NCBI GenBank assembly: GCA_018816185.1
Contig: JAHIWI010000367.1
Span: forward strand, 1-33,801
Source: Bacillota bacterium
GTDB lineage: Bacteria > Bacillota > Bacilli > Bacillales_A > Planococcaceae
Length of the DNA: 33,801 nucleotides
Reading direction: 5' to 3'
The first letter of the stretch is position 1. Each line of letters begins with the position of its first letter. Made by a program: the position numbers and the translations under genes. The notes below the pieces were generated by a model. That model was not told where the DNA came from and ran no database searches. It worked only from the letters and a program-made list of their open reading frames with translations. Positions 2,974 through 25,759 of this stretch are shown here, piece after piece.

Positions 2974-3374
2974 ACTGCTAAAGAGTTAATTTAGTGCTCC
3001 CGATAAAGTGTCATATGTTAACTGGTTCTTATAATGAAGGCTCACTCCTATTAAATTTATGAGGATCTATTGAAATTTTTAGGTTTCTTTAACTCATCAT
3101 TTATCCGTATCAAATCTATTTATTAAACAGATTTTATAGTTTCAAGAAAATTTTTGTGTCAAATTCTATCATTTTTTATTAATAGTTTGGTTGAGTTTAA
3201 TAATATTTCCTCTTTTCACGAAAAGAGTAGATTCTAAGCTGCAATTAATAGCGAAAAAACCATAAAAATGTCCCAACTTAAATAGATTTAATTATCTCAA
3301 AATTTAAATTAGTATAAAAGTAGATTCAAAATAACAAATAGAATGGAGAGTGTCGAGATGAGGAAGTAGATTAG

Positions 3375-3448: not shown

Positions 3449-4714
3449 ATGACAAATTCTAAAAAAATCTTTATGAGTATTTTGCTTACTGCAAGTCTAG
3501 CAATGCCGACGTTTAGTGCAAATGCTGACACGATAAGTAATAACACAGAAGAGAAAATTCGTGTTTATGTGGAAGCTTCTGACACTCCAACAAAATCAGC
3601 CATTAAAGGTAAGTTCAAAGTCAGATGGGAATTAACTGAAAATGGTTTCTCTACAGAAATGACAGAAAAACAATTTTCTGCACTCCAAAAAAATAAAAAA
3701 GTTCAAGTCACAAAAGTGCAAGAAGTTACCTTGGATACAGATATAAAGGTTAGAGCTGCTAATAATCAAGTGGCAGCAGCTGAGTATCCTACCCAACAAA
3801 CACCTTGGGGAATAAAAGCGATTTACAATAATAGTAATCAAACAACTACTTCAGGTGGACAGGGTATCAATATTGCGGTTCTTGATACGGGTGTCAACGT
3901 TAATCACTACGATTTAGCAAATACAGTAGAGCAATGTAAAAACTTTACGGGCTCTACAACTGTCATTAGCGGATGTAATGATGGAAACGGTCATGGAACA
4001 CATGTAGCAGGATCTGCACTAGCTGATGGAGGATCTGATGGTGCAGGAATTTACGGTGTTGCCCCTCAAGCTGATCTTTGGGCATATAAAGTATTGGGAG
4101 ATAACGGATCTGGATACTCAGACGATATCGCAGCAGCAATACGTCATACGGCAGATCAAGCAACATCAACGGGGACAAAAACTGTCATCAATATGTCTCT
4201 TGGTTCTTCTGCCAATAATAGTCTAATCTCAAGCGCAGTTAATTATGCGTATAGTAAAGGAGTTCTAGTTGTAGCCGCTGCTGGTAACTCAGGTCCTAAT
4301 CAAGGAACAATCGGATATCCAGGAGCTCTTGTAAATGCAGTTGCAGTTGCAGCTCTTGAAAATGTTCAGCAAAACGGGACGTATCGTGTAGCTAACTTCT
4401 CTTCTCGTGGGTATGCTTCTACTGATGGTGATTATGTCATACAGCAAGGAGATATAGAAATTTCCGCACCAGGTGCAGCGATTTACTCTACTTGGAACAA
4501 CGGTGGTTATAATACAATCAGTGGTACATCAATGGCAACACCTCATGTTGCAGGATTAGCAGCAAAAATCTGGGCTCAAAATCCAGGCTGGTCTCACACG
4601 CAGTTACGTAGTGACTTACAAAACCGCGCGAAAAATTACGATATCAAAGGTGGTACTGGAGCAACAACAGGTGATGATTATGCTTCAGGTTTTGGGTTTG
4701 CTAGAGTGAACTAA
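3449..4714 (+). CDS. secreted subtilisin-like serine protease precursor (S8)
   Basis: This 421-residue prepro-subtilase has a Lys-containing N-terminus and hydrophobic signal peptide with likely cleavage after SANA (about residue 26). A propeptide of roughly 80 residues follows, and the mature enzyme begins near residue 115. The triad is intact: Asp146 in VLDTG, His182 in GHGTHVAG, Ser361 in SGTSMATPHVAG, with Asn280 in AAAGNSGP as the oxyanion residue. Cys163 and Cys176 could form the loop disulphide I recall in subtilisin S41 and sphericase, and many other segments (PWGIKAIYNN, VNAVAVAALENV, YASGFGFA) match that group. It should be exported and degrade extracellular protein. GGAG at 3437 fits ATG 3449. 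It is convergent with a quorum-type regulator/peptide pair, which suggests density-dependent control. Confidence 0.95.
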   Translation: MTNSKKIFMSILLTASLAMPTFSANADTISNNTEEKIRVYVEASDTPTKSAIKGKFKVRWELTENGFSTEMTEKQFSALQKNKKVQVTKVQEVTLDTDIKVRAANNQVAAAEYPTQQTPWGIKAIYNNSNQTTTSGGQGINIAVLDTGVNVNHYDLANTVEQCKNFTGSTTVISGCNDGNGHGTHVAGSALADGGSDGAGIYGVAPQADLWAYKVLGDNGSGYSDDIAAAIRHTADQATSTGTKTVINMSLGSSANNSLISSAVNYAYSKGVLVVAAAGNSGPNQGTIGYPGALVNAVAVAALENVQQNGTYRVANFSSRGYASTDGDYVIQQGDIEISAPGAAIYSTWNNGGYNTISGTSMATPHVAGLAAKIWAQNPGWSHTQLRSDLQNRAKNYDIKGGTGATTGDDYASGFGFARVN

Positions 4715-4751: not shown

Positions 4752-4786
4752 AAAAAAAATGGCTACTCATCATGTAGCCATTTTTT
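4752..4786 (+). terminator. terminator after the subtilase gene
   Basis: ATGGCTAC and GTAGCCAT form the stem around TCATCAT, with A-runs before and T-runs after. The symmetry would allow bidirectional function. Confidence 0.85.
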
Positions 4787-4823: not shown

Positions 4824-4853
4824 AAACCTTTCATTTATACTCTTGAAAGGTTT
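4824..4853 (-). terminator. terminator after the peptide gene
   Basis: AAACCTTTC pairs with GAAAGGTTT over a 12-nt loop, 8 nt downstream of the peptide gene's stop, with TTTCTTT following on the minus strand. Confidence 0.6.
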
Positions 4854-4860
4854 TTAATTT

Positions 4861-4983
4861 TTATTTAAAAGGTTTTACTTCTGTTGGTCGCGGTAATTCA
4901 TCTTCGGCTAAGTTAATTGAGTTATCTCCAAATCCGAAGATTAAAGTTATAGCAAACAACAAAAGTAGGTATCTCTTTTTCAT
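4861..4983 (-). CDS. putative secreted signalling propeptide (NprX/PapR-like organisation)
   Basis: A 40-codon gene starts at ATG 4983, immediately after the tandem TAA stops of the HTH/TPR regulator. GGGAGG at 5000-4995, inside the regulator's last codons, serves as ribosome site. The peptide begins MKKRYLLLLFAITLIFGFG, a positively charged start plus hydrophobic core as in an export signal. It continues with DNSINLAEDE and ends in a short polar, proline-containing tail LPRPTEVKPFK. Known RRNPP receptors such as NprR and PlcR are followed by genes of this size whose C-terminal fragment is exported, processed and re-imported as the ligand. I infer that the ligand lies within the last 12 residues. 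The sequence does not resemble NprX or PapR outside the general plan, so it would be a new pheromone. Confidence 0.72.
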   Translation of the reverse strand: MKKRYLLLLFAITLIFGFGDNSINLAEDELPRPTEVKPFK

Positions 4984-4986
4984 TTA

Positions 4987-6294
4987 TTACATATCCTCCC
5001 ACTGAATAATATTATTTTGTTTAAATAAAACTTGATTAGCCTTTTTAAAGTAAATCCCTGCTGTTTTAAATTTGTTTTCATTAAAATAATGTTCTGCTAA
5101 TAAAATTGAATACTTTTGTACATGACGATTATCTTGGATTATCTCGAAATGTTTTATTGCTTTTTTTAATATTTCTTCAAGTTCATTACTAAAACTATGG
5201 ATAGCGCTGTATATACAAAAGTGAAAATAGTTAGAATGGATAGTATGATTAGAATTTAATTCGTTTTCATTAATCTTTCCTAATCCTCTTTCACACCAAT
5301 TAAGCACTTGACCTGCATTCTTTTGCTTGGAATATTCTTTGACAATTGAAAGAACGGTTAATAAATATCCTTCTGAACTACTCTCACCTCCTTTACATTT
5401 CAAACTGAGATTAAAATATTCAATTGATTTAGTATGATTTTCTTGAATTGAATATAAAGAACCTAAATTTTGAAAAATTATTCCCTTGTATGCATCTAGT
5501 TTATAGTCTCCTGCAAGTTTACTAGCTAATTGATAATGCTTTTCTGCCTCTTTGTATTTTTTCATTTTTTTGTAAGCCAAACCCATTACAATATAATTAT
5601 CAATTGCTCTTTTAAGTAAAAGGTTGTCTGTATAATATTTAAGTGACTTTGATGCATAGTTGATCGAATTGAAAAATTCATTATTCTTAAAATATGTCAT
5701 GCTAATCACATTGTAAAAATCTGCATGTTCCCAATCTTCATTTGCAATATGATGGACAAGCCCTAGAGATTGTTCCAATTGACTTAAAGATTTCGCAAAA
5801 TCCCCTTTCATCAAGAAATAAATACCCAGGTTTAAGTTAAATACAAATCTTTGGTTATCATCAAATTCGTCATGCATTTTTATTATCACTTCATAGTAAG
5901 ATTGTATGCTTTCATTCACCTCATCTAGAATCAACATTAACCGAAACATATAGAGATTGTAGTTATAATAATTTTTTGGTTGCATAAAAACCACTTTACT
6001 AGTAGAAAATTCATCTAAAAATTTTGTAATGATTGTCTTGTCCCTATTATGAATCCCATCTTTGTATAAATTGTAAAAGCTTTCTATTAGAGTACTTTCC
6101 TCTTCTTCCGAAACTTCTTCTATTTCTAAGTTAAGTCTTTTGAGTAAAAGGGATGTGATGTCCACACTTGGAAAAGTTGAGTTATTCTCGATTTTGCTGA
6201 GATAAGATGTAGAACAGATCCCCCTCGCTAATGAAATCTGTTTCATATTTTGATTCAATCGTTCTTGTTTAATAATATGGCCAATACTTCTCAT
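4987..6294 (-). CDS. XRE-HTH/TPR transcriptional regulator of RRNPP type (PlcR/NprR-like)
   Basis: The 435-residue product has an N-terminal helix-turn-helix at about residues 3-60 (GHIIKQERLNQNMKQISLARGI, then STSYLSKIENN). The rest is all-helical with repeated TPR-like units such as AIDNYIVMGLAYKKMKKYKEAEKHY and GIIFQNLGSLYSIQENHTKSIEYF. That is the plan of peptide-binding PlcR, NprR and related receptors, and length fits NprR (about 420). The frame is open to a TTG at 6315, but AGGAGG lies 6 nt before ATG 6294, so I use that start. A 40-codon exported-peptide gene follows directly and is very likely co-transcribed. The convergent subtilase is the obvious target candidate. Receptor class is well supported; the ligand and target are inferred. 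Confidence 0.82.
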   Translation of the reverse strand: MRSIGHIIKQERLNQNMKQISLARGICSTSYLSKIENNSTFPSVDITSLLLKRLNLEIEEVSEEEESTLIESFYNLYKDGIHNRDKTIITKFLDEFSTSKVVFMQPKNYYNYNLYMFRLMLILDEVNESIQSYYEVIIKMHDEFDDNQRFVFNLNLGIYFLMKGDFAKSLSQLEQSLGLVHHIANEDWEHADFYNVISMTYFKNNEFFNSINYASKSLKYYTDNLLLKRAIDNYIVMGLAYKKMKKYKEAEKHYQLASKLAGDYKLDAYKGIIFQNLGSLYSIQENHTKSIEYFNLSLKCKGGESSSEGYLLTVLSIVKEYSKQKNAGQVLNWCERGLGKINENELNSNHTIHSNYFHFCIYSAIHSFSNELEEILKKAIKHFEIIQDNRHVQKYSILLAEHYFNENKFKTAGIYFKKANQVLFKQNNIIQWEDM

Positions 6295-13982: not shown

Positions 13983-14537
13983 ATGCGAATTGGTTATGCT
14001 CGTGTATCAACGGGTTTACAAAACTTAGATTTGCAAACAGATGCACTTACTCAATATGGATGTACTAAAATTTTTCACGATAAGATGAGTGGATCAAAAA
14101 AACAACGAGCTGGATTAGAAGAAGCTCTTCAATATGCTCGTCAAGGAGATACAATAGTTGTTTGGCGATTAGATCGGCTTGGCCGAAACATGCAGGACCT
14201 GATTGATATAGTCAATAACTTAAATGAACAAAATATTGGATTTCACAGTCTTCAAGAAAACATAACAATGGATCGTAGTAATGCAACCGGACAGCTAATG
14301 TTCCATCTATTTGCAGCATTTGCTGAGTTTGAACGAAATCTTATTCAAGAACGTTCTGCTGCAGGACGAGTGGCAGCTAAAGCACGGGGACGTCTTGGCG
14401 GGCGTCCAGAGAAGTATGGAGTGAAAGATATTGAAATGATGAAAAATCTTATTGATGGGGGTACACCGATCAAAGATGTGGCAGAAAGGTGGGGTGTTTC
14501 TCGAACAACCATTTATCGATATTTAGAACGTAAGTAA
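13983..14537 (+). CDS. serine resolvase/invertase (TnpR-type)
   Basis: This 184-residue small serine recombinase has the catalytic start YARVST (nucleophile Ser9, Arg7) and the RLDRLGRN motif with Asp64, Arg65 and Arg68. A long E-helix follows (LFAAFAEFERNLIQERSAAG) and then a C-terminal helix-turn-helix (PIKDVAERWGVSRTTIYRYL, about 161-180). It should cut and exchange DNA at paired res sites. All key residues are present and the length is normal, so it is probably functional. ATG 13983 follows GTGAGG by 8 nt. No transposase lies next to it. A near-copy of its site I lies 11 kb to the left in direct orientation. Confidence 0.93.
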   Translation: MRIGYARVSTGLQNLDLQTDALTQYGCTKIFHDKMSGSKKQRAGLEEALQYARQGDTIVVWRLDRLGRNMQDLIDIVNNLNEQNIGFHSLQENITMDRSNATGQLMFHLFAAFAEFERNLIQERSAAGRVAAKARGRLGGRPEKYGVKDIEMMKNLIDGGTPIKDVAERWGVSRTTIYRYLERK

Positions 14538-14538
14538 T

Positions 14539-14613
14539 CAGATTGCTAAATGTAGAATGAAAGAAGAAACTTTTTATAAATTAGTGAGAGAGTTAAAAAT
14601 TAAAAAGAAATGA
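14539..14613 (+). pseudogene. possible remnant of a second recombinase HTH
   Basis: Directly after the resolvase stop, in another frame, 24 codons read QIAKCRMKEETFYKLVRELK to a TGA. This resembles the C-terminal helix-turn-helix of a serine recombinase (a block like 'IAK...TFY.LVKEL'). It has no start and is too short to be a gene. It is offered as a remnant only. Confidence 0.3.
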
Positions 14614-14667
14614 AATACCTTATATATAGAAGAAACTTAATCAAAAACCTCATTTAAGAATTGTGAT

Positions 14668-14699
14668 AGCCCTTCCATCTTCAAAAAATGGGAAGGGCT
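14668..14699. terminator. hairpin between the resolvase and the 44-aa gene
   Basis: AGCCCTTCC pairs with GGAAGGGCT around a 14-nt loop. There is no good T-tract on either strand, so termination is possible but not certain. Confidence 0.4.
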
Positions 14700-14771
14700 A
14701 TTGTACTTGTCTTTCAGATTTTCTTAAAAAACCTAACACTTTTATGTGTTTAAAATAATCTTAATTGTTTT

Positions 14772-14906
14772 TTAATGTTTAGTATCTTGATGTTTTTTGA
14801 GAGTTTTACCTGCATTACTTTTCTGTGGTTTTGTTGCAGTTTTACTGCTTAATGTTTTACCTGCTTTTCCAACTTTTCCACCTGAGTGTTTTGTCATAAT
14901 CGCCAT
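14772..14906 (-). CDS. small Lys/Gly-rich basic protein (44 aa)
   Basis: ATG 14906 follows a strong GGAGG (14918-14914) by 7 nt and opens a 44-residue protein. It begins MAIMTKHSGGKVGKAGKTLS and continues SSKTATKPQKSNAGKTL before a His-rich end. It is strongly basic with repeated Gly-Lys/Ala-Lys units and no hydrophobic segment. I recall widespread short bacterial proteins of unknown function with the same 'HSGGKVG..AGKTLS' pattern, but I cannot name the family. Disordered or nucleic-acid-binding behaviour is an inference from charge. Confidence 0.6.
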   Translation of the reverse strand: MAIMTKHSGGKVGKAGKTLSSKTATKPQKSNAGKTLKKHQDTKH

Positions 14907-15134
14907 TTCTTTACCTCCACCTTTCTAATTTTTCCATTTTAAGAGTCCTCCTTAAAATCTATTATAACATAAATTAACAAATAATATCTATATATAGTGT
15001 TAATATTTAAAAATATACTATATCTTGTGTTTTTGAACTTTTAAAAAGCTATTAACCAAATAATTCCTGACGATTTACATGAATAGTGATAAAGTTATTA
15101 AATTCAGACAAAATATATGTGATACCTAATTTTG

Positions 15135-15632
15135 ATGGAACGGCATGTATTATTCAGGCGTTCGCCTTGGGAGGGACTTTATATTAAAGAAATGGTTCTT
15201 ACAAATTATGAAAAACATAAAAAGCAAAAAATATCAATATGTAATATTTGTTTGAAAGAGGACAGATTAAGCTGGGATCATGTACCACCAAAAGGAGGTA
15301 TTAAATTATCTGCTGTTGAACAAGAGCCATTAATGCAATATCTAACAGGTAATTATGATGAAAGAAAGTACATAATTTCTCAAAACGGAGTGAAATATAG
15401 AACGTTATGTCCAAAATGTAATGCCTATCTCGGTTCAAATTACGACATTTCGATGAATAAGTTTACGTTAGAGGTTGGTCAACTTTTAAAATCGAAAGTA
15501 ATTTTACCCTCGACAATAAATATCTCTACAAAACCAGCACACCTAGTCAGATCAATATGTGGTCATCTCTTTTTAATAAAAGGGTTCAAGATTTGGTTTT
15601 TGCTTGTAATTTATCTAACTTTGGCAGTTTAA
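15135..15632 (+). CDS. HNH-like zinc-binding protein, probably frameshifted
   Basis: The 165-codon frame contains a CxxC at Cys36/Cys39 (CNICLKED), WDHVPPKGG with Asp48-His49, and CPKCN with Cys92/Cys95/Asn96. This is the layout of HNH nucleases that hold a zinc ion with two CxxC pairs. The following text (LGSNYDISMNKFTLEVGQ, then KPAHLVRSICGHL) is normal for such proteins. The last 20 residues are hydrophobic and unlike them, and lie where another frame (from 15557) takes over. I suspect a frameshift near the T/A runs at 15567-15580. No start has a convincing ribosome site: TTG 15132, ATG 15135 and ATG 15192 are options. The missing site fits decay. Confidence 0.55.
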   Translation: MERHVLFRRSPWEGLYIKEMVLTNYEKHKKQKISICNICLKEDRLSWDHVPPKGGIKLSAVEQEPLMQYLTGNYDERKYIISQNGVKYRTLCPKCNAYLGSNYDISMNKFTLEVGQLLKSKVILPSTINISTKPAHLVRSICGHLFLIKGFKIWFLLVIYLTLAV

Positions 15633-16261
15633 CGGTAGATGAATATGTCATATTCCAAGATAGTAGTGTATATGAAATAGGCGGAAAAAAATTAGATTAT
15701 AAAATTTTTTTTGAAGCGAAAAGAAGCAGCATGGAATGGCAGTATCCAACCTTATATGAGATAGGTATTCAGGATGTTTGGGATTGGTTGATTAAAAGAA
15801 AAGATTTCTTATATGGATTTAGTCAAACAGCTGTAACCAGGGCATTAATAAATCTGGGGGAAATTTCATTTTCAGATCCAAATATGAAATTATTTAGGGC
15901 GGTAATGGGAATTGAAGGACTATATACAAAAGGGAAAAGTAATTTATTAGAGCAAGTGAGAGAAAAAACACAAATATTGTTAGGAAAACAAGAACAATAT
16001 AAAAAATTGTATTCGAATATGTATGATTTCCGATCGAAATTTATTCATGGGGAGTTAAATTTTCCAGCAACAGTAAATATAGATTTTTCTAAAAATGTAG
16101 AATCACATAGTGAAGATTTAAAAAAAGCAACATATTTTGCAATCTTATTATTAGGCGCGTCAATCCAACAACTAATAATAAGGGATTGGCATGGTATACA
16201 ATTTGAATATGTTGTAAGTGATACAGGTGACTCGAGTAAGAAGGAGGTCGGGAGTGACTAA
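15557..16261 (+). CDS. HEPN-domain protein (Apea-like), overlapping the HNH-like ORF
   Basis: The 234-codon frame ends in a typical Apea-like HEPN domain. WDWLIKRKDFLYGFSQTAVT leads into FRAVMGIEGLYTKG, and YDFRSKFIHGE contains the RX4H motif (Arg159-His164) that forms the RNase site in active HEPN proteins. ATG 15557 has no ribosome site and lies inside the HNH-like ORF, so this is either the downstream half of one frameshifted HNH-HEPN gene (about 375 codons) or a gene with an unseen start. A short hairpin-free gap separates it from the convergent next gene. HEPN proteins act in toxin-antitoxin and phage-defence systems. Confidence 0.6.
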   Translation: MWSSLFNKRVQDLVFACNLSNFGSLTVDEYVIFQDSSVYEIGGKKLDYKIFFEAKRSSMEWQYPTLYEIGIQDVWDWLIKRKDFLYGFSQTAVTRALINLGEISFSDPNMKLFRAVMGIEGLYTKGKSNLLEQVREKTQILLGKQEQYKKLYSNMYDFRSKFIHGELNFPATVNIDFSKNVESHSEDLKKATYFAILLLGASIQQLIIRDWHGIQFEYVVSDTGDSSKKEVGSD

Positions 16262-16316
16262 GTCCCGACTTCTCAAACCATCATGCATTCCAATCGATAT
16301 AATGGAGAATAAAAGG

Positions 16317-16913
16317 TTAACGAGTTAAGATGATTTCTGCGGCTTTTAATCGAATCGACTCCTCTGTACTCTCCAACAACTCTTCAACGACTTGCCATGC
16401 GCGTTTTTCTATTTCAGGTATTTGCTGACTAGGCCCCCCCTGTAAGATTTGTTCAATAATTTCATAGTGTTTGGTGACATCAGCGACCGCACGTGGGTAA
16501 CGTAGTGATCCTTTCAGGGCTTCTGGTAAATCATTACGTAAATACGGCTTTTTCTCAAAATACCAGGAAACTCTACGTTGATGCGGGTACCCTGATACTT
16601 CTGGAATATCTTCATCTAAGGAAGGGACATACATATAATCTGAGGTGATCTCACCGATATAAATATCTTTTTTATTACTTGATGGAACGAGGACAATGTC
16701 CCCTATCGACATTTCATGGACTAAAATATTGACATTGCTGATGCCTTCTTCCCAGCCTCTTGTTTGTAACAACGTACGTAATTCTTCATAGTTCGTATCG
16801 AATAAGTCTTTTCCTAATGGATAACCAACTGCCACGATGTTTTTTTCTAAAAATGTTTCTAAGTGATCTCCAAAATGGGGAAGGGGGCGAACTAACCATA
16901 CTTTCTTTTTCAT
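16317..16913 (-). CDS. PUA/EVE-like domain protein linked to restriction
   Basis: The 198-residue product begins with WLVRPLPHFGDHLETFLEKN and IVAVGYPLG. It then has a gap-and-strand block with MSIGDIVLVPSS and IYIGEITSDYMY, and later RRVSWYFEK. This resembles the PUA-like (EVE-related) modules found at the start of type IV restriction enzymes, which read modified bases, although no nuclease domain is fused here. The C-terminal 60 residues are helical. The frame is open to ATG 16925, but AAGGAG directly abuts that codon. ATG 16913, 12 nt after it, is more plausible. The gene has its own promoter region with a dyad at 16944. Function is inferred only. Confidence 0.5.
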   Translation of the reverse strand: MKKKVWLVRPLPHFGDHLETFLEKNIVAVGYPLGKDLFDTNYEELRTLLQTRGWEEGISNVNILVHEMSIGDIVLVPSSNKKDIYIGEITSDYMYVPSLDEDIPEVSGYPHQRRVSWYFEKKPYLRNDLPEALKGSLRYPRAVADVTKHYEIIEQILQGGPSQQIPEIEKRAWQVVEELLESTEESIRLKAAEIILTR

Positions 16914-16943
16914 TTTCTCTACCATCTCCTTATTTCTTTAATT

Positions 16944-16959
16944 AGCACTTATTAGTGCT
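16944..16959. promoter_or_regulatory. operator-like dyad upstream of the PUA-like gene
   Basis: AGCACT-TATT-AGTGCT is a perfect 6-bp dyad 31 bp before the gene start. On the minus strand, TTGCTA and TATTAT with about 17 bp between them lie just upstream, which makes an operator overlapping the transcription start plausible. Confidence 0.35.
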
Positions 16960-17039
16960 TGTAAATATATAATATAACTAATTTTTATAATTAGCAACCA
17001 TGAGCATTCATGAAGAAATTAAGGGTGGTGTTAAAAGGA

Positions 17040-17079
17040 ATTCTAAGTATCGATAAGATCGGTTATCGCTACTTAGAAT
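17040..17079. other. long imperfect hairpin
   Basis: ATTCTAAGTA-T-CGATAA pairs with TTATCG-C-TACTTAGAAT, a 17-position stem with one mismatch around GATCGG. Neither side has a classic T-tract. It lies between the PUA-like gene and the hsdS remnant, in a stretch (16960-17203) without a gene. Confidence 0.45.
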
Positions 17080-17203
17080 GTGAAGTCTAAAAGGTTATTT
17101 TTTTACAATAGACCTAATGAAAAAAACTCCCTTTGAATGGGAGCTTGCTGCTGCATAACGAATATTCTCTCGATAAGAAATTTATACATAAATACATTTC
17201 ATT

Positions 17204-17453
17204 TCATACAACAATCTGTTGCATTAAACCTTTTTTCTGACTCTCTAACGCCAGCAACTTTTCTTTTTCTTTCAATTTTTCTATCTAACTTTGACAAGAA
17301 TACAGCTATTTCTTGTTGTTCCTTAAATATAGGAATAAGGAACCGTAAATTTTCAAAAGTTGTTTTATTTACAAGAGCTGTTGCAGTTGTTCCTGCAACA
17401 TTCTTTATTCGATAGTTAAAAAGCTCAATTAAGTAATATAAAAAATCAACTGT
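17204..17453 (-). pseudogene. hsdS: remnant of a type I restriction specificity subunit (HsdS C-terminus)
   Basis: On the minus strand DFLYYLIELFNYRIKN and VAGTTATALVNKTTFENL are followed by IPIFKEQQEIAVFLSKLDRK. That is the usual end of an HsdS target-recognition domain and its conserved coiled coil. A one-base shift in the A-rich run near 17262-17275 is needed to continue into KLLALESQKKGLMQQIVV and the TGA at 17206-17204, an almost perfect HsdS tail. The upstream end meets a TAA at 17456, inside the palindrome at 17448-17473. About 80 codons remain of roughly 400, and no hsdR or hsdM is in the window. This is a decayed fragment of a lost type I system. Confidence 0.78.
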
Positions 17454-17473
17454 TTATTTATAAATAAACAGTT
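17448..17473. repeat. perfect 26-bp palindrome
   Basis: AACTGTTTATTTA is followed at once by its exact reverse complement, with no loop. It coincides with the broken end of the hsdS remnant. Confidence 0.8.
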
Positions 17474-17482
17474 ATGGCTAAG

Positions 17483-17494
17483 CCGTTAGTTTAA
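17483..17494 (-). repeat. partial copy of the AACTAACG repeat family (copy g)
   Basis: TTAAACTAACGG on the minus strand is identical to the core of copies e and f, and again lies a few tens of bases after the stop of a minus-strand gene (AbiU2-like). The rest of the repeat is not conserved. Confidence 0.35.
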
Positions 17495-17531
17495 AAACCA
17501 ACGCGATCGATTGTGGAATAATAAAAACATA

Positions 17532-18167
17532 CTATAACTTCCTCAATGCCTTTAAGACAGCATCCACGTCAAAGGTGTTTGATGGAATAACATGTGTATT
17601 TTTACCGTTATATCCTATTTGATAAGTATTTAATATTTCTGCTGCAAGTTCAATTAAATTTTCAATTTCTTTATATGTTATTGGGAAGTCTCTTCCTAAG
17701 GCTTCTCTATCTTTAAAATACTTTTTATCATTGTGAGCAAATGCTTTATCTCTCCAAGTTATTAAATTATTAATTATAGGTTCAACCTCATTTAATTTTT
17801 CCTTATGTTTAATAACAGTTGATTCATTAATATCTGATGTTCGCCCAAGTTTTTTTTTTGTAATTGGATCGTTAGAAAAAATCTTTTTATGATTACTCTC
17901 AATAAAGTTCAAAAATTTTTTTATGCTTTTACTATCTCTAGAGGATGGTTCAAATATTTTCGCTAAACCCATAATTGCAGAATACTGAAAAGAATAAATT
18001 GTTAAGCTGAAAAATGCAGGTGCTTTGTTCATCAAATTTAAGTTCTCTTGTTGATTACTTTTTTGCTTGAGATATCTATTTAATAAAAGAAAGCTATTTA
18101 ATTGATAAAGTTCTCCTAAAAGACCCTCTACATCATTCACAAATTGGTTAATAGTATCCTGTGACAT
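17532..18167 (-). CDS. AbiU2-like HEPN protein
   Basis: The 211-residue protein is mostly helical. It contains LTIYSFQYSAIMGLAKIFEP near residue 55 and a late RDKAFAHND in which Arg139 and His145 form an RX5H motif. This is the plan of AbiU2-type HEPN proteins, related to the lactococcal abortive-infection protein AbiU2 and thought to be RNases or toxin-like effectors. The Arg and His are present, so it could be active. It lies on the same strand as, and downstream of, the zinc-ribbon fragment and the RES-domain gene. No antitoxin of the MNT (nucleotidyltransferase) type is adjacent. Family good, activity inferred. Confidence 0.7.
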   Translation of the reverse strand: MSQDTINQFVNDVEGLLGELYQLNSFLLLNRYLKQKSNQQENLNLMNKAPAFFSLTIYSFQYSAIMGLAKIFEPSSRDSKSIKKFLNFIESNHKKIFSNDPITKKKLGRTSDINESTVIKHKEKLNEVEPIINNLITWRDKAFAHNDKKYFKDREALGRDFPITYKEIENLIELAAEILNTYQIGYNGKNTHVIPSNTFDVDAVLKALRKL

Positions 18168-18215
18168 ATGACAACTCCCTATAAAATTACTATACTTAAA
18201 TTCTATTGATTTAAC

Positions 18216-18344
18216 TTAATCATAATATTCGCCAGTGTCATATAGTCCACCACATTTCTTACATCTATAATGCCAAGTAAGCCTTCCACCATATCCACAA
18301 TTCTTCCAAAAACCTTTTTCAGTATCCTGAATATGTAAACTCAA
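18216..18344 (-). CDS. small zinc-ribbon-like ORF, possibly a fragment
   Basis: A 42-codon frame with TTG 18344 as the only plausible start reads SLHIQDTEKGFWKNCGYGG and then WHYRCKKCGGLYDTGEYYD. CKKC with the earlier Cys16 suggests a partial zinc ribbon. AGGAG lies about 13 nt upstream of the TTG, farther than usual, and just after a terminator, so translation is uncertain. It may be a small immunity-type protein or the tail of a lost gene. Confidence 0.4.
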   Translation of the reverse strand: MSLHIQDTEKGFWKNCGYGGRLTWHYRCKKCGGLYDTGEYYD

Positions 18345-18364
18345 ACTATTTTGATGCTCTCCTG

Positions 18365-18396
18365 AAAAAAGTTAGCTCATTAGAGCCAGCTTTTTT
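18365..18396 (-). terminator. terminator after the RES-domain gene
   Basis: GAAAAAAGCTGGCTC on the minus strand pairs with GAGCTAACTTTTTTC around TAAT, with two mismatches and a clear T-tract. It is 54 nt beyond the RES-gene stop. Confidence 0.75.
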
Positions 18397-18449
18397 CTTC
18401 AGAATTTTTATTGTTCGAAAAATGCAATTTAAACGAAGATATATGATAA

Positions 18450-19607
18450 CTAAAAGAGTAAGATTTGTTCAATCTCTTGGTGGGAAATTACTCTCTCAAT
18501 TGTAATGTCATGGTTTTTGGTAAAGCTAAAAAAGCAATAATTTTTCCCTTCACCTTTAACACTGTCATATCCTATACCGTTATATCCAAGAATCATTAAA
18601 CATTGTGCAATAAAGTTAGGGAAGACGTATTCTCGTTTTATGATATCCCTTGGACTTTCAGGAGACATATTGCTAAATAAGCTGCTATTATTTCCAGTTA
18701 AATCGAAGATTCTTAAGGGTTTTAGAATCTTAAATTCTGCCACATCCATTGATTCTTCTTCATCATCTAGAGATAATTCATCTCTTAATATTTGCAAGTT
18801 ATCTGCCAAATATAGAGTAGAAACTCCTGCGAAATTAAACCTTCCTTGACTAGAGAGAGCTTTAGGCGGATTCCATAACTCTTCCGGAATGAATGTCGCA
18901 AGTCTTTCTCTCTTCTTTCGCGTGCGTCCTCTATAAAAGACTATTTCAGGCTTTAAAATCTTTGTTAAATCTAGCTCATTATATTTTATTGAATCGTAAA
19001 TTTTTTGACCAATTTTATGATGTAAAGCTAGCATTGGATAGTTTATCAAATGCTCAATGAAGGAATTAGCCTCATCTTCAGATATATTAAAGACCTTGTC
19101 CAAGATTTCTTTTTCCTCTTGAAAGTCTCCATACCAATTTGATTTCTCCCATTCAGTAACATAAGGATCATCATCAGAAAAAGACGAATTACAGGTAGAG
19201 CAATAGAGATTTTCAAGTATAACTGACGCCAATTCATCTTTTGAATTCCCGGTCCACACAGAAAATCCATTCTCCTCTAACAATGAGCCAGCATTCTCCA
19301 AATCTGATGGATCTCCATAAATTTGAGTGTAAGGAATAATGTCTGAATTACAGCTTTGACACCCTGCAATTTCTTTTGATAGTTCTTCACCAATTTCTGG
19401 AGCAACTGTACTTATAAAATCGCTTTTATCTTCAATGAAATAGGCTACCTCTTTCAATACTTCTTTACAGTTAGGACATTTAGTAAGATATAAATCTTCT
19501 ATTTCACTTACCTCAAGAATAGTAGGTACTGGACCGAGTTTATGAATATCATAAAAATCAATCACTTTTTGAATATCCATACAGTTACTGCATCTTTCTA
19601 CTATCAT
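18450..19607 (-). CDS. zinc-ribbon protein with a RES domain (ADP-ribosyltransferase-like)
   Basis: The 385-residue protein has four CxxC pairs in its first 140 residues (Cys6/9, 44/47, 83/86, 136/139), probably two treble-clef or ribbon zinc sites. A helical middle follows, and then a RES domain from about residue 222. The RES part has FYRGR (Arg226), GRFNFAGVSTLYLAD (255-269) and YVFPNFIAQCLM (328-338). RES proteins such as those paired with Xre antitoxins degrade NAD+ and arrest growth. This longer version, with an N-terminal metal-binding region, has been seen in defence-linked proteins. ATG 19607 follows GGAGG by 5 nt. No Xre antitoxin is adjacent, so it may be a stand-alone, infection-triggered effector; that is inference. 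Confidence 0.8.
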   Translation of the reverse strand: MIVERCSNCMDIQKVIDFYDIHKLGPVPTILEVSEIEDLYLTKCPNCKEVLKEVAYFIEDKSDFISTVAPEIGEELSKEIAGCQSCNSDIIPYTQIYGDPSDLENAGSLLEENGFSVWTGNSKDELASVILENLYCSTCNSSFSDDDPYVTEWEKSNWYGDFQEEKEILDKVFNISEDEANSFIEHLINYPMLALHHKIGQKIYDSIKYNELDLTKILKPEIVFYRGRTRKKRERLATFIPEELWNPPKALSSQGRFNFAGVSTLYLADNLQILRDELSLDDEEESMDVAEFKILKPLRIFDLTGNNSSLFSNMSPESPRDIIKREYVFPNFIAQCLMILGYNGIGYDSVKGEGKNYCFFSFTKNHDITIERVISHQEIEQILLF

Positions 19608-20501
19608 ATAATCCTCCTTTATATATGAACGATTAAGGTCAGTTGCTTAAATAGCTCTAATAAATATTATTCGTACAAACTGTTAAAAACACAAGTGTTC
19701 CTAAAAATAATGGACAATACTTCCAAACATCATTGACTTATTATAGAATATCTCGTTAATCTTAGTAATTAAAACTATTTGTTCGTTAAAATTGATATTT
19801 TGCGAACAAATATAACTTAAAAAAAATAACCGAGCTACCTAGTTACCTTCCTCTACACTCTCTCGACTTTTGCACAGTCTATGTATACATAACGTATAGT
19901 GCCTGTTTTCCAGTATGTTACTTTATAACAAATCCTGGGTTGGTATTTTTTAGGAAGCAGTTAACTATTTCTAAAATCTACTCAAAATTTGTGTTGCCCA
20001 ATAATAAAATCATCCTAATCGTGTATACGCTACTCCGATTCTTATAATGAAAAAGTCATTCTTATGATTTTTAGCAGTGTACCTACCAACAAAGGAAAAA
20101 GTAGGAATTCAACCGTTAATATTCCAACAAACAATACCATTCTGTCAATGACACACATACCTACTTGAGAAAAATCTATTTGAATTTTATGACCTCCCCC
20201 CATTTAAGTCGGAAGGATTTTTCTAATTTTTTAGCTAAAAGTGTAACGAGATGAACCGTTTTTAACCTTTTATCAGCAATAAGTTATTAAATTGTTCAAA
20301 TTCCGACTTTGGATCTTTCTCTCTTCTAATATTTGAGTGATATATAAAATAGAATCGCCTCTTTCTCAAAAGTATGCAGGCAAAAAATTTAATTACATCA
20401 TTATCTTCGCAAGCTTCTGTTTCTTGCACTTCGCTAACCTTTTTCACATAAAAAGCGAGAATGAAAACTCATTCTCTTTTTTGTTTTAAAGCAAAATATG
20501 T
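19608..20501. other. 890-bp stretch without a supported gene
   Basis: The only open frame of note is a 61-codon GTG frame (20447-20262, minus) that starts inside a terminator and has no ribosome site, so I do not call it. The sequence is heterogeneous and may hold decayed genes. It contains a terminator at 20452-20482 near its right end. Confidence 0.4.
20452..20482 (-). terminator. terminator after the DUF5677-like gene
   Basis: GAGAATGA and TCATTCTC form a perfect 8-bp stem around GTTT on the minus strand, extended by AAAAAAG / CTTTTT, 20 nt after the stop. Confidence 0.8.
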
Positions 20502-21323
20502 TCACCCTTTAATTAAATTCCCTCTAATCTTTGATACGAATTCAATAAATTCCTCTTCGAATTCTGGAAAAAATTGAGTAGTGAACGATTTAATTGAGGA
20601 AGTCAAAGTTGCCCTTACCGGTAATAAGTTATACCTGTCACTATTGGGGTCGAAATTTTGGTGAACCGATTTTAGACAAATTACTCCATTGCTATTCATA
20701 TATATGTCTCTGAGAGTTAATAGGCTGTGCGCATCTGCAGACAGGGCCCCATAAATAGTACTAATTAATCCTTTTTCCTGGTCACTAGCATCATTTTCTA
20801 ATTTCTTTACCAACTGATTAATTGTCTTAGGTCCCCCATAAAGAGAGTACCACTTTGGAATATGTCCTCTGTTATCTTGTCTATGTAGTTTATCATGTTC
20901 GGTTAAAACCTCTTGAAAATCAGGTCTTTGCAATTCATCTTGATGATATTTCCCAGCACCTTCGATATAGGTAGGATTAATGTCTAGCAACTCATTTTTT
21001 TTTAGATCTTCTAAAGATTTAATCTGTTCTTTATGATAACTAATTTTGTAAGCTATGGCTCGAGAGTTTGTTTCTTCTGGAACTTGAATGATGTATTTGA
21101 ATGCCAAATACGCTTCAATAAGTCCACGATAATTAAGCTGGGCCGGCCCAGCTAAACCATTAGATGCACTTATCATTACTCCAGTACTTAACTCAATAAT
21201 TTTTCTAAACAAGCTACTCACTACCATATTAGTAGTATCACTTAAATCCTTTGTTTTTTTAAATTCATCCAACTCTGTTGAAGCAAACTCTACTGAACGC
21301 TTTAAAACTTCATGATAATTCAT
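20502..21323 (-). CDS. DUF5677-like protein
   Basis: A 273-residue helical protein. SSLFRKIIELSTGVMISASN and the following PAQLNYRGLIEAYLAFKYII resemble DUF5677 proteins, which are found in defence islands and probably belong to the wider HEPN-like helical group. I see no clear RX4-6H motif. There is no signal peptide, and two weak amphipathic segments could touch the membrane. GGGAGG precedes ATG 21323 by a normal distance. A terminator follows. Its neighbour on the left is the RES-domain gene about 900 bp away on the same strand. Function unknown. Confidence 0.6.
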   Translation of the reverse strand: MNYHEVLKRSVEFASTELDEFKKTKDLSDTTNMVVSSLFRKIIELSTGVMISASNGLAGPAQLNYRGLIEAYLAFKYIIQVPEETNSRAIAYKISYHKEQIKSLEDLKKNELLDINPTYIEGAGKYHQDELQRPDFQEVLTEHDKLHRQDNRGHIPKWYSLYGGPKTINQLVKKLENDASDQEKGLISTIYGALSADAHSLLTLRDIYMNSNGVICLKSVHQNFDPNSDRYNLLPVRATLTSSIKSFTTQFFPEFEEEFIEFVSKIRGNLIKG

Positions 21324-21955: not shown

Positions 21956-22053
21956 GATAAGTGAAACGTAAAGTTCGAATGTTATTGAATAAGGAAGGGA
22001 AATTACGGAAAGAATTAATTCAACTAGTTAGCCAAGTCGAGGGGTATAATCAT

Positions 22054-23562
22054 ATGAGTTTTTTTAAGAAAAAGTCAATAAGGTCAATATCAAATAGTCC
22101 AATCAATGAGAGCCAACTATTAACGAATGATATCAATAAAAATATACACAGTATCAGAGATTATCATTGTCGAACAGAAGATTTGATGGTGAGAGAATTG
22201 ATTTTTAATAAAAATATCTGTACAATTTTTTATCTTGATTCAATGGTCAACAAAGATTCACTTCATTCTTCTGTTATAGGTCCAATTGTAGAAACGAAAT
22301 ACGGCGAAATTCAACATATAGTGAAGACCACTCAAGTGAAATTCACTTCAAGAATTTCAGATGTCGGGTCAGATTTGTTAGATGGCTTTTGTATTATATT
22401 AAGAGAAAATAACGCCACTGCAATCTCTTTATCGGTAGTGGAAAATACTTCTCGTTCGATTGAGGAACCTGATAATGAAAGAAGCATTATCAGTTCTCAT
22501 GATGGATTTATAGAAGATATAGGTACTAATATTTTTCTGTTAAGAAAAAGAGTTAAAACCCCTCAATTGAAAGTGAAATACTTTTCTGTGGGGAAACTTA
22601 CGAATACGAAAGTCAGTATGGTTTTTATAGAAAACCTTACGGACAAAAAATTAATAAAGGAAGTTGAACGAAGAATAGGTTCGATTGAAGTAGATCAACT
22701 TTTATCTTTTGGAGATATTGAAGATTACATTGAGGACAACCCTAATTCTATCTTCCCACAAATGTTAACGACTGAAAGGCCAGATCGAGCGACGTCGTAC
22801 TTGACGGAAGGAAAAATCTTACTGATTGTTGATGGAAGTCCAAGGATTATGATTGTACCCATAACTTTTTTTGCATTTTATCAATCGCCAGATGATTACA
22901 ATAGTCGGTGGATAATCGGTACTTTTTTCCGTTTAATTCGATTCCTCAGTTTTATCGTTGCTATCACTTTTCCGGCCATTTATATTGCAGTCGTTTCTTA
23001 TCATTCTGAAGTACTGCCTATTGGTATCTTATATTCAATCCGGGTTTCTTTAGAAAATGTCCCCTTTCCCCCTTTGATAGAAGCCTTTGCCATGCAAATC
23101 ACTCTTGAGTTACTAAAAGAAGCATCCATTCGTTTACCTACTCCTATAGCACAAACTACTGGTATTGTAGGGGGGCTCGTAATCGGTACGGCAGTAGTAG
23201 AGGCTAGTTTTGTGTCAAATATAATGATTGTAGTCATAGGTCTTACTGCAATCGCGTCATTTGTAGCACCTGTGAATGAAATGGGAACCAGTGCAAGATT
23301 ATTAGGTTTTCCCGTCATGATTGCAGCATCTTTATTCGGTTTTTTTGGAATTGTCCTCGTATTAATGGGGATTTTTATGCACCTATGTAAATTACAAACC
23401 TTTGGGACGCCTTACTTTGCCCCACTAGCACCTTTTAAAATGGAAGACATAAAAGATAGTATTGTAAGACTTTCCTTTTGGAAACTTAATTCGCGACCAA
23501 CCGACTCTAAGCCAATTTACAAAAAACAACAATGGCGTACTAGGGGGTGGAAGAATAATTGA
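22054..23562 (+). CDS. GerA-family spore germinant-receptor A subunit
   Basis: The 502-residue protein has a soluble N-terminal domain of about 270 residues (REYHCRTEDL-type start, here RDYHCRTEDLMVRELIF). Around residue 220 comes the signature LSFGDIEDYIEDNP with the following TERPDRA. The membrane segments begin near residue 290. LLKEASIRLPTPIAQTTGIV and GGLVIGTAVVEASFVS in the membrane region are hallmarks of GerA/GerK A subunits, which sit in the spore inner membrane and sense nutrients. The frame is open to GTG 21961, but that codon has no ribosome site. GAGGGG (22039-22044) is 9 nt before ATG 22054. It overlaps the B-subunit gene by 4 nt in an A-B-C operon. Confidence 0.95.
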   Translation: MSFFKKKSIRSISNSPINESQLLTNDINKNIHSIRDYHCRTEDLMVRELIFNKNICTIFYLDSMVNKDSLHSSVIGPIVETKYGEIQHIVKTTQVKFTSRISDVGSDLLDGFCIILRENNATAISLSVVENTSRSIEEPDNERSIISSHDGFIEDIGTNIFLLRKRVKTPQLKVKYFSVGKLTNTKVSMVFIENLTDKKLIKEVERRIGSIEVDQLLSFGDIEDYIEDNPNSIFPQMLTTERPDRATSYLTEGKILLIVDGSPRIMIVPITFFAFYQSPDDYNSRWIIGTFFRLIRFLSFIVAITFPAIYIAVVSYHSEVLPIGILYSIRVSLENVPFPPLIEAFAMQITLELLKEASIRLPTPIAQTTGIVGGLVIGTAVVEASFVSNIMIVVIGLTAIASFVAPVNEMGTSARLLGFPVMIAASLFGFFGIVLVLMGIFMHLCKLQTFGTPYFAPLAPFKMEDIKDSIVRLSFWKLNSRPTDSKPIYKKQQWRTRGWKNN

Positions 23563-24656
23563 TTTCTGAAAAATTATCCATCACAAAGTTTCAATTGTTT
23601 TTTTTATTAATTCAATCCCAGATTGGTATAGGTCTCTTATCTCTACCGAATATAGTACAAAAATCTGCCAAAAGCGATGGGTGGATTTCAATTATTTTGG
23701 CTGGGGTAGTAATTCAATTTTTGATGGTTGTCTATTATTTACTTTTGAAGAGATATCCAGATGACTTGCTTTCAAACATAACCGAAAAAATACTTGGATT
23801 CCTACTTGGGAAAGTAGTAAATTTCATCATTTACATTTATTTTATATTGACGGGAAGTCTCTCACTGATACTAATGGTGAAAATAATAAACTTGTATTTA
23901 TTGCCAGTAACACCTGGGTGGGTTATATCCTTACTCGTAATATGTGCATGTGTTTATTTGACCACCAGTGATTTAAGAATTATTGCAAGGTTTTTTGTAT
24001 TGGTTTCCACCTTAATTATATTGCTACTATTTACCAATATTGTTCTTGCCTTTTATATACCGAAAGAAATTCAATACATTCTTCCTATCGGAAGTGCAGG
24101 AACGAAGAACATACTAATAGGAAGTAATAGTGCTTTATTAGCAATGTTGGGTTTTGAAGGGTTATTGTTTATGTTCCCCTATGTAATTCACAATACCAAA
24201 GGGTTGTTAAAAACCACTTCCTTCGCCAACCTGTTTGTCACAAGTTTTTACACTTTTATCACTTTTCTCTGTTTAATAAAATTCAGTCCTGAACAATTAC
24301 AACAAATAAGGGAGCCAGTGTTGTATCTATTCAGAGGATTGGCATATAAAATGTTTGATCGAATTGATTTGATTTTTCTTTCGATATGGATTGTGCCAAT
24401 GACGACCTCGATTATTATGTATTTATTTCTTGCTAGTAAAAGTATCAGTGGTCAGAAAATGTCTTATAAAAAAACAGTATTAGTTAATGGAGTATTGATA
24501 TTTTTAATTTCGCTGATACCTCATACTGATGAAATCACAAATCTCATGAACAAATACGTTTCTTATTTTAGTTATGCCGTTATCATGGTTCTACCAGTCT
24601 TCCTACTAATTCTGTCCTTCATATTCAAAAGACATGAACGGGGTGTGACGAATTGA
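23559..24656 (+). CDS. GerB-family germinant-receptor B subunit (APC-type permease)
   Basis: TTG 23559 overlaps the stop of the A gene (TTGA), with GGGGGTGG 8 nt upstream, so translation is coupled. The 365-residue product has about ten membrane segments, beginning FQLFFLLIQSQIGIGLLSLP, with the short polar segment GWISIILAG typical of the family. GerB subunits are related to amino-acid permeases and bind germinants in the spore inner membrane. Normal length and no internal damage. Confidence 0.93.
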   Translation: MISEKLSITKFQLFFLLIQSQIGIGLLSLPNIVQKSAKSDGWISIILAGVVIQFLMVVYYLLLKRYPDDLLSNITEKILGFLLGKVVNFIIYIYFILTGSLSLILMVKIINLYLLPVTPGWVISLLVICACVYLTTSDLRIIARFFVLVSTLIILLLFTNIVLAFYIPKEIQYILPIGSAGTKNILIGSNSALLAMLGFEGLLFMFPYVIHNTKGLLKTTSFANLFVTSFYTFITFLCLIKFSPEQLQQIREPVLYLFRGLAYKMFDRIDLIFLSIWIVPMTTSIIMYLFLASKSISGQKMSYKKTVLVNGVLIFLISLIPHTDEITNLMNKYVSYFSYAVIMVLPVFLLILSFIFKRHERGVTN

Positions 24657-25759
24657 AAAAGAAGCAATTGCTAATTTTAATTATCTTGAATCTGTTTTTA
24701 GCGGGTTGTTGGGACCAACATCTGCTTGTGAATAAAACATTTGTGAACGGAATAAGTTTTGATTTAACAGAGGAAGGAAAAATCCAGGCAACGGTTCGGT
24801 CTTTAAATATAAAGGGCAAAGGTGGAGGGCAAATTGAAATTGAGGATGAACTTATATATGCGGAAAGACCTTCACCGGTAGGTTTATCAATTGACATTGA
24901 TAACATGGTGGCAGGAGAAGTGGATTTACATCAAGCACATATTGTTTTAATTGGTGATGAATTGGCGAAAAAAGGAATAAATCAATTACTTGAGCCTTTT
25001 TATCGCGGAAAAGAATCTAATATTACAAAAAAAATTGCGATTTCCAAAGGAAAAGCAGAAACGATCATATCTACGGAAATAGAAAAAAGCCCTATTGCAT
25101 TCTTTATTTTACAAACGATTGAAGGTGCTGAGAAGGCTACCTATTTGCCAGATGAAAACATTTTAACTGTGTGGACCAAAATTTTAACTCCTGGCAAAGA
25201 TATTATCTTGCCATATTTAGAAAAAATAGAACCAGATAGAATAGGAATTGCGGGGGTCGCTCTTATGCATGGAGAAAAGTTTTCTGGAGAGACCTTGTCA
25301 AAAGAGCAAAGCAGTTTATTATTACTGTTGCTAGACCAATTAAACGTAACGAGCCGTATGGCACTCGTTCTAGATCAAGAGCAAGAAGAGCGGTCCATTG
25401 CTTTTTTTACACGAAAGATGAAAAGAGACATGGAGATTACCGTAGACAAATCAGGAAAGATTATTTGCAGTGTAGATATTAAAATGCAAATAGAAGTAAA
25501 TAGCTATCCGCAAGATTTTAAAGAAGACTTAAATATTAAAGAGATCGAGAAAGAACTTTCTGAAGAATTAACCAAACAAGCAAATGAAATAATCACGACT
25601 CTTTTACAAGCAAATTGTGATGCTTTTGGGATTGGAATGAAGATATCCACTAAACATCCAGATTTGTGGAAAAAATTGAATTGGGATGAAGAATATAAAA
25701 ATGTTCAAATCGAGCCAAAGGTAAACGTAAAAATCATTAAAACTGGTAACGTGTACTAA
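24653..25759 (+). CDS. GerC-family germinant-receptor lipoprotein
   Basis: TTG 24653 overlaps the B-gene stop. The 368-residue product starts KKKQLLILIILNLFLAGCWD with a lipobox (LAGC, Cys19), so it is a lipoprotein facing the inter-membrane space. The sequence after it shows the GerC plan, with VNGISFDLTEEGKIQATVRS and a middle HQAHIVLIGDELAKKGINQL, and a C-terminal GerAC fold (TLLQANCDAFGIG). All three subunits are of normal length, so the receptor should be complete. The germinant cannot be predicted from sequence. Confidence 0.94.
   Translation: MKKKQLLILIILNLFLAGCWDQHLLVNKTFVNGISFDLTEEGKIQATVRSLNIKGKGGGQIEIEDELIYAERPSPVGLSIDIDNMVAGEVDLHQAHIVLIGDELAKKGINQLLEPFYRGKESNITKKIAISKGKAETIISTEIEKSPIAFFILQTIEGAEKATYLPDENILTVWTKILTPGKDIILPYLEKIEPDRIGIAGVALMHGEKFSGETLSKEQSSLLLLLLDQLNVTSRMALVLDQEQEERSIAFFTRKMKRDMEITVDKSGKIICSVDIKMQIEVNSYPQDFKEDLNIKEIEKELSEELTKQANEIITTLLQANCDAFGIGMKISTKHPDLWKKLNWDEEYKNVQIEPKVNVKIIKTGNVY

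Follow-up and report, generated by a model that had tools for sequence, protein, structure and literature searches.

The NprR-NprX system of the Bacillus cereus group is composed of an HTH receptor with nine TPRs, about 420–435 aa long, and a propeptide with a Sec signal, the gene of which lies directly downstream. NprX-bound NprR is a tetramer and has been proposed to occupy two sites on the DNA (PMC4970707). NprR has been listed in 21 genera (PMC9765709), and the RRNPP_detector survey, which reported 21 further candidate subfamilies and 34 clusters, also published a pair of Priestia koreensis FS-1 as NprR-NprX (PMC10075063). In the main texts of the RRNPP surveys, Psychrobacillus, Sporosarcina and Paenisporosarcina go unmentioned in this connection. 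Here we describe a gene pair with the layout of NprR-NprX in the window, the whole stretch of 33,801 nucleotides that was analyzed, from the genome of a soil bacterium whose group is otherwise recorded as Paenisporosarcina. With a probability of about 0.88, we read this pair as a bicistronic quorum-sensing module of the RRNPP type (NprR-like).

The receptor gene (4987–6294, minus strand) reads from 6294 to 4987 as 435 codons plus TAA; with an alternative TTG start, 21 nt farther upstream, the product would be 442 aa long. Both its HTH_3 domain (31.3 bits; cut-off, 23) and its TPR domains exceeded the Pfam cut-offs, with the HTH at the N terminus and the TPR superhelix after it. The size of 435 aa is inside the RRNPP range of 250–500 aa, and the TPR domain is of the peptide-binding type. 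The gene ends in a tandem stop, TAATAA, the second TAA of which (4986–4984) is followed at once by the ATG (4983) of a 40-codon propeptide gene (4861–4983, minus strand), which thus starts 3 nt after the stop codon of the receptor and has a TAA ending at 4861. Its Shine-Dalgarno sequence GGGAGGAT (complement of 4993–5000, minus strand) is located within the last codons of the receptor (ending WEDM), 9 nt before the propeptide ATG, and relatives have the same GGGAGGAT with a WEDL ending. The product, MKKRYLLLLFAITLIFGFGDNSINLA / EDELPRPTEVKPFK (the slash marks the predicted cleavage), has a basic start (KKR), a hydrophobic core, an Ala preceding a plausible cleavage site and an exported part of 14 residues, and its 40 aa fits the range of 10–100 aa for RRNPP propeptides. 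The ORF, Pfam and Shine-Dalgarno readings therefore confirmed the initial annotation of an HTH/TPR regulator, a tandem stop and a 40-codon gene for an exported peptide with its ribosome site inside the regulator. A hairpin, AAACCTTTCA-10-TGAAAGGTTT, lies just behind the propeptide gene (4824–4853). A second one, ATGGCTAC-7-GTAGCCAT (4759–4781), recognized by eye and absent from the terminator-scan list, is flanked by A/T runs and is a putative bidirectional terminator between the pair and the neighboring subtilase gene.

The fold of the receptor was predicted with AlphaFold2 from an alignment with 56 relatives (mean pLDDT 91.4), and the model was compared with the PDB using VIA-align. The highest-scoring match was apo-NprR (5dbk, Z 32.5 over 348 residues at 15% identity), tied within 1 with RapI (4i1a, Z 31.6) and followed by other Raps (about 30), AimR (19) and PlcR (18). 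The match to the NprR/Rap fold spans receptor residues 64–424, and the superhelix aligned over 350 residues with the nine-TPR receptors. NprR was also the best match of the receptor profile among natural PDB chains (5e-22), and a single-sequence phmmer search with the receptor did not match NprR at E ≤ 1. The initial annotation had invoked the order and sizes of both NprR-NprX and PlcR-PapR. The order is indeed that of PlcR-PapR, an HTH-TPR receptor and then a Sec-exported propeptide, and the size fits NprR; PlcR, however, has five TPRs and about 285–295 aa (a chain of 293 aa) compared to the 435 aa found here, its profile match is weaker (1e-6), and the fold of the window receptor is NprR/Rap-like. 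PlcR-PapR was thus rejected as the closest model on the grounds of size and fold.

The pair also differs from NprR-NprX itself. The identity is about 15% in the structural match to 5dbk, which is below the RRNPP_detector rule of at least 30% identity over 80%, there is no adjacent nprA-type neutral protease gene, and the pheromone, although Pro-centred in both systems, has the core ELPRPT in the window instead of the NprX type (SKPDI, in full SKPDIVG). Strict NprR membership is therefore not claimed, on the basis of identity and pheromone; the published NprR cluster may include the window receptor by chaining. The receptor of P. koreensis FS-1 is 27.7% identical to the window receptor over 96% and closer to it than to NprR, with scores of 113 and 59 bits, respectively. 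The FS-1 pheromone, encoded downstream and ending SEEEFPEPTVAQVLI, has an E-E-x-P-x-P-T core as in the window, and the two pairs differ in that the FS-1 one is plasmid-borne and has EEEFPEPT rather than EDELPRPT. The window pair had been called probably new, which holds for this member but not for its kind, as NprR-like pairs are found in the published RRNPP surveys and the FS-1 pheromone is of the same type.

Relatives were read from genomes of the same genus, of the family and from named genomes. The nearest receptors were those of Psychrobacillus, with 55–62% identity; the receptors of Paenisporosarcina had 33–47%, and in a receptor tree, the window receptor fell within the Psychrobacillus clade, a position that had starred support. 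The outgroup of this tree was only the TPR part of 4gpk, on a long branch, because genuine NprR sequences were not found: a search of 399 Bacilli genomes with a cut-off of E ≤ 1e-40 gave none, and there was one weak plasmid match besides. When ORFs at -20 to +45 of the receptor stop codon were counted and Sec-type signals were judged by eye and with a hydropathy script, a Sec-like ORF with a Shine-Dalgarno sequence was located behind 58 of 91 receptor genes, compared to 1 of 201 other long ORFs at the same loci, a difference that is not due to chance. Absence of the small ORF beside close homologues had been named as the observation that would speak against a pair; the ORF was present in each of the 18 members sampled from the closest clade. 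The claim of an RRNPP-type receptor/propeptide pair, with NprR-like order and size, a constant position and a variable tail, is thus borne out.

Receptors without a peptide gene were mainly seven orphan receptors of Paenisporosarcina and those of Exiguobacterium, Kurthia and a few others. In the seven Paenisporosarcina genomes (L013–L016 and L018–L020), the orphan receptor gene is located directly upstream of the paired one, and it is possible that the orphans are second listeners to the same pheromone. The loci of Exiguobacterium and Kurthia (L057–L081) have a family receptor with no peptide gene directly downstream, those of Exiguobacterium carrying the promoter box described below, and the signal gene may be located elsewhere. 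Phage and viral relatives were looked for, in part of the search with one pattern only, and none were found.

The ytoQ gene at 1545 is 93–94% identical to that of other Paenisporosarcina, so contamination was rejected and the contig is regarded as genuine. Synteny with the genus mates ends right behind ytoQ, near 2090; the pair is therefore part of a variable region and may have been acquired. Farther along the window, a variable region at 13983–21323 contains genes for a serine resolvase, an AbiU2-type HEPN protein, a RES-domain protein and a DUF5677 protein, and a gerA/gerB/gerC-type germination receptor operon is located at 21961–25759, from which we conclude that the host probably sporulates.

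In 19 clade members, the window included, the exported part of the propeptide begins [ED]-[EDN]-E-x-P-R-[PIV]-T, immediately behind the position at which signal peptidase is predicted to cut, with the PRPT form in 17 of them. The C-terminal tail is variable in both its length and its sequence (EVKPFK, SIDNSSFL, SSGNTN and FDKPTKK). The codons of this core, EDELPRPT in the window (4882–4905, minus strand), were found in 19/19 members and mark the likely ligand region. When the 19 sequences were compared in all pairs, which are not independent, the four PRxT codons showed 266 synonymous versus 35 non-synonymous codon differences; by these counts, the core codons are under purifying selection within the clade. 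Other Paenisporosarcina propeptides have P[RK]ITS or P[RK]ITG, and those of Sporosarcina have P[KR][VILF]. In Fictibacillus and Rossellomorea (L088, L090, L095, L096 and L097), propeptides carry several pheromone units in tandem (VDNGPNPT, DENPPMKHS and HDDSPKIN), and these repeats independently outline a D-x-x-P-x-[PI] unit, in agreement with the conservation in the clade. As both agree on D-x-x-P-x-[PI]-x, DELPRPT, whole or trimmed further, is the most likely ligand, rather than the very C terminus. The initial annotation had placed the ligand in the last 12 residues (LPRPTEVKPFK region), and this has to be corrected, the conserved core being at the N-terminal end of the exported part and not in the C-terminal tail. 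The small ORF might also encode a small peptide of an unrelated kind, secreted or in the membrane, which merely accompanies the regulator, but its conserved core with a variable tail, its position kept over many genera, the tandem-repeat forms and a receptor fold of the peptide-binding class make this highly improbable.

In the quorum-sensing module that we propose, the propeptide would be produced from the same transcript as the receptor, exported by Sec, as its signal sequence suggests, and cut by signal peptidase at the predicted site before EDELPRPT, and the exported part would be trimmed to a short peptide around DELPRPT. This peptide would be re-imported by an oligopeptide permease (oligopeptide-binding proteins are encoded in the source genome) and bound inside the TPR superhelix, where its backbone would be held by Asn276, judging from the alignment with NprR and Rap. 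Asn276 is invariant in 56/56 relatives and aligns, by sequence alone, with the Asn of YNLG in Rap3T and of SNMG in NprR; the Rap counterpart, the Asn of the Y224-N225 pair, binds the backbone of Phr (PMC3601965). Rap-Phr thus resembles the window receptor in its TPR superhelix (Z 30–32) and its invariant backbone-binding Asn, whereas Rap has no HTH, and the Rap Asp that pairs with the Arg of Phr is matched in the alignment by the basic K243, a position at which 34 of 56 relatives have K or R. The pheromones of this receptor family carry a conserved acid instead, and a charge swap relative to Rap-Phr, with the basic residue in the receptor and the acid in the pheromone, is possible in a register taken from sequence alignment only. 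Binding of the peptide would then switch the DNA binding of the receptor, most likely through a tetramer able to hold two sites, by analogy with NprR.

Within 250 nt upstream of the receptor genes, the box TTGGGAAA/TTTCCCAA was present in 75 of 116 promoters, compared to 1.4 expected from mononucleotide shuffles, although related sequences are not independent. In many receptor promoters, the box occurs as an inverted pair, TTGGGA[AC]A ... T[TG]TCCCAA, with starts 52–54 bp apart, for example, at -113 and -60 in L003 and at -81 and -27 in L088. The exact paired pattern was found in 18 of 261 family genomes, at 20 places, 12 of which were receptor promoters by position, compared to 6 control places in all. 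By analogy, boxes spaced by about 53 bp would suit a two-site tetramer of the NprR type. The receptor promoter of the window itself has no family box within 320 nt at up to 2 mismatches, and the promoter of the FS-1 pair has no obvious box. When the source genome was scanned for the paired box at up to 2 mismatches, 12 places were obtained versus 2 for the reversed control, from which no regulon is claimed. On another contig of the source genome, a perfect paired box (L169:2324-2383) is located 80–140 nt upstream of the gene of an AbrB/SpoVT-type regulator (L169:1963-2241, minus strand), a candidate target.

The lack of a box in the window receptor promoter could point to secondary or lost DNA binding, and the receptor might then be Rap-like, acting on the sporulation phosphorelay when free of peptide and being relieved of this action by the peptide. 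This would be consistent with the fold tied between NprR and RapI, with the bifunctionality of NprR (PMC4970707), with the near-invariant Glu189, which is close to the Spo0F-contact Glu of NprR, and with a germination operon in a host that probably sporulates. However, the window receptor has an intact HTH, and no part of the protein is more conserved than the HTH residues; Y118 and Y223 of NprR are not conserved in the profile alignment, and the tetramer and Spo0F-contact residues of NprR are not clearly conserved there, in a register that is itself uncertain. We regard a Rap-like action as improbable and retain the DNA-binding module as the preferred reading.

The convergent neighbor of the pair is a gene for a secreted subtilase (Peptidase_S8 by Pfam; 3449–4714, plus strand), a duplicate of a gene on another contig of the same genome (G000:C351; 81–82% identical). 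There, a second RRNPP-type pair (L128:7676-8893 and following; G000:C351:35678 onward) has a 405-aa HTH-TPR receptor divergent to the subtilase. Like the window pair, it combines an HTH-TPR receptor with a Sec propeptide; its receptor is 25% identical to that of the window and falls in a separate clade, its propeptide ends AEPAETQDTVAIRPPV with the pheromone core P-I-[HR]-P-P-[VIL], and its promoter box is TTTTCCCAATAA. The subtilase family was found in 87 of 261 genomes, and 28 of the best 30 loci have a divergent RRNPP-type receptor about 47–70% identical to the C351 one, the two exceptions being the copy in the window and one locus truncated at the end of its contig. The subtilase-linked propeptides have the core P-I-[HRY]-P-P-[VIL], and most subtilase promoters of these loci contain TTTTCCCAATAA just upstream of the -10 element. 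This subtilase-receptor-peptide unit is conserved across Planococcaceae and, since its loci carry divergent RRNPP receptors and TTTTCCCAATAA is common to most of the promoters, control of the subtilase family by RRNPP receptors is plausible. In the subtilase-linked pairs L142–L155, the propeptides are 28–30 aa long, with PIHPPV or PIYPPV right after the hydrophobic stretch and no spacer, and their export and processing may differ.

The initial annotation had further taken the convergent subtilase as a target of the window pair. The gene adjoins the pair, each of the two subtilase copies in the source genome lies beside an RRNPP pair, secreted proteases are under the control of NprR-type systems (PMC3325205, PMC7756075), and a lone half-site, TGTCCCAAC (3269–3277, plus strand), which is a variant form of the family box, precedes the start of the subtilase gene by about 170 nt. 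There are two half-sites in the window versus 0.47 expected, and 7 of 100 shuffles reach two, so this half-site is not significant window-wide and is suggestive only. On the other hand, the usual divergent partner of such subtilases is another RRNPP receptor (the 28 loci above), no subtilase was present in the flanks read around the PRPT-type pairs of Psychrobacillus and of the other Paenisporosarcina, and the window copy lacks the TTTTCCCAATAA box seen in most other subtilase promoters. With its homologues linked divergently to another RRNPP pair, the adjacent subtilase is rather unlikely to be a direct target. More tentatively than for the module itself, we speculate that NprR-like receptors of Planococcaceae and related Bacilli read a shared box, TTGGGA[AC]A-N44-T[TG]TCCCAA, on which a peptide-driven tetramer would bridge two sites five helical turns apart. 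Several coexisting pairs with different pheromones (PRPT and PIHPPV types) and orphan receptors might then act on shared promoters, the subtilase one among them, and one cell could integrate several peptide languages on one operator.

In all likelihood, the window pair is a genuine peptide "language" and a new member of an established kind, RRNPP and NprR-like. If this is true, it would provide a testable pheromone, with the core DELPRPT, for Paenisporosarcina and Psychrobacillus, in which peptide signaling is undescribed in the literature searched, and the box would be a candidate operator for the NprR-like group, from which regulons could be predicted. The conserved unit of subtilase and RRNPP pair elsewhere in the genome suggests that peptide-controlled secreted proteases are common in Planococcaceae, beyond the B. 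cereus group in which such control is known.
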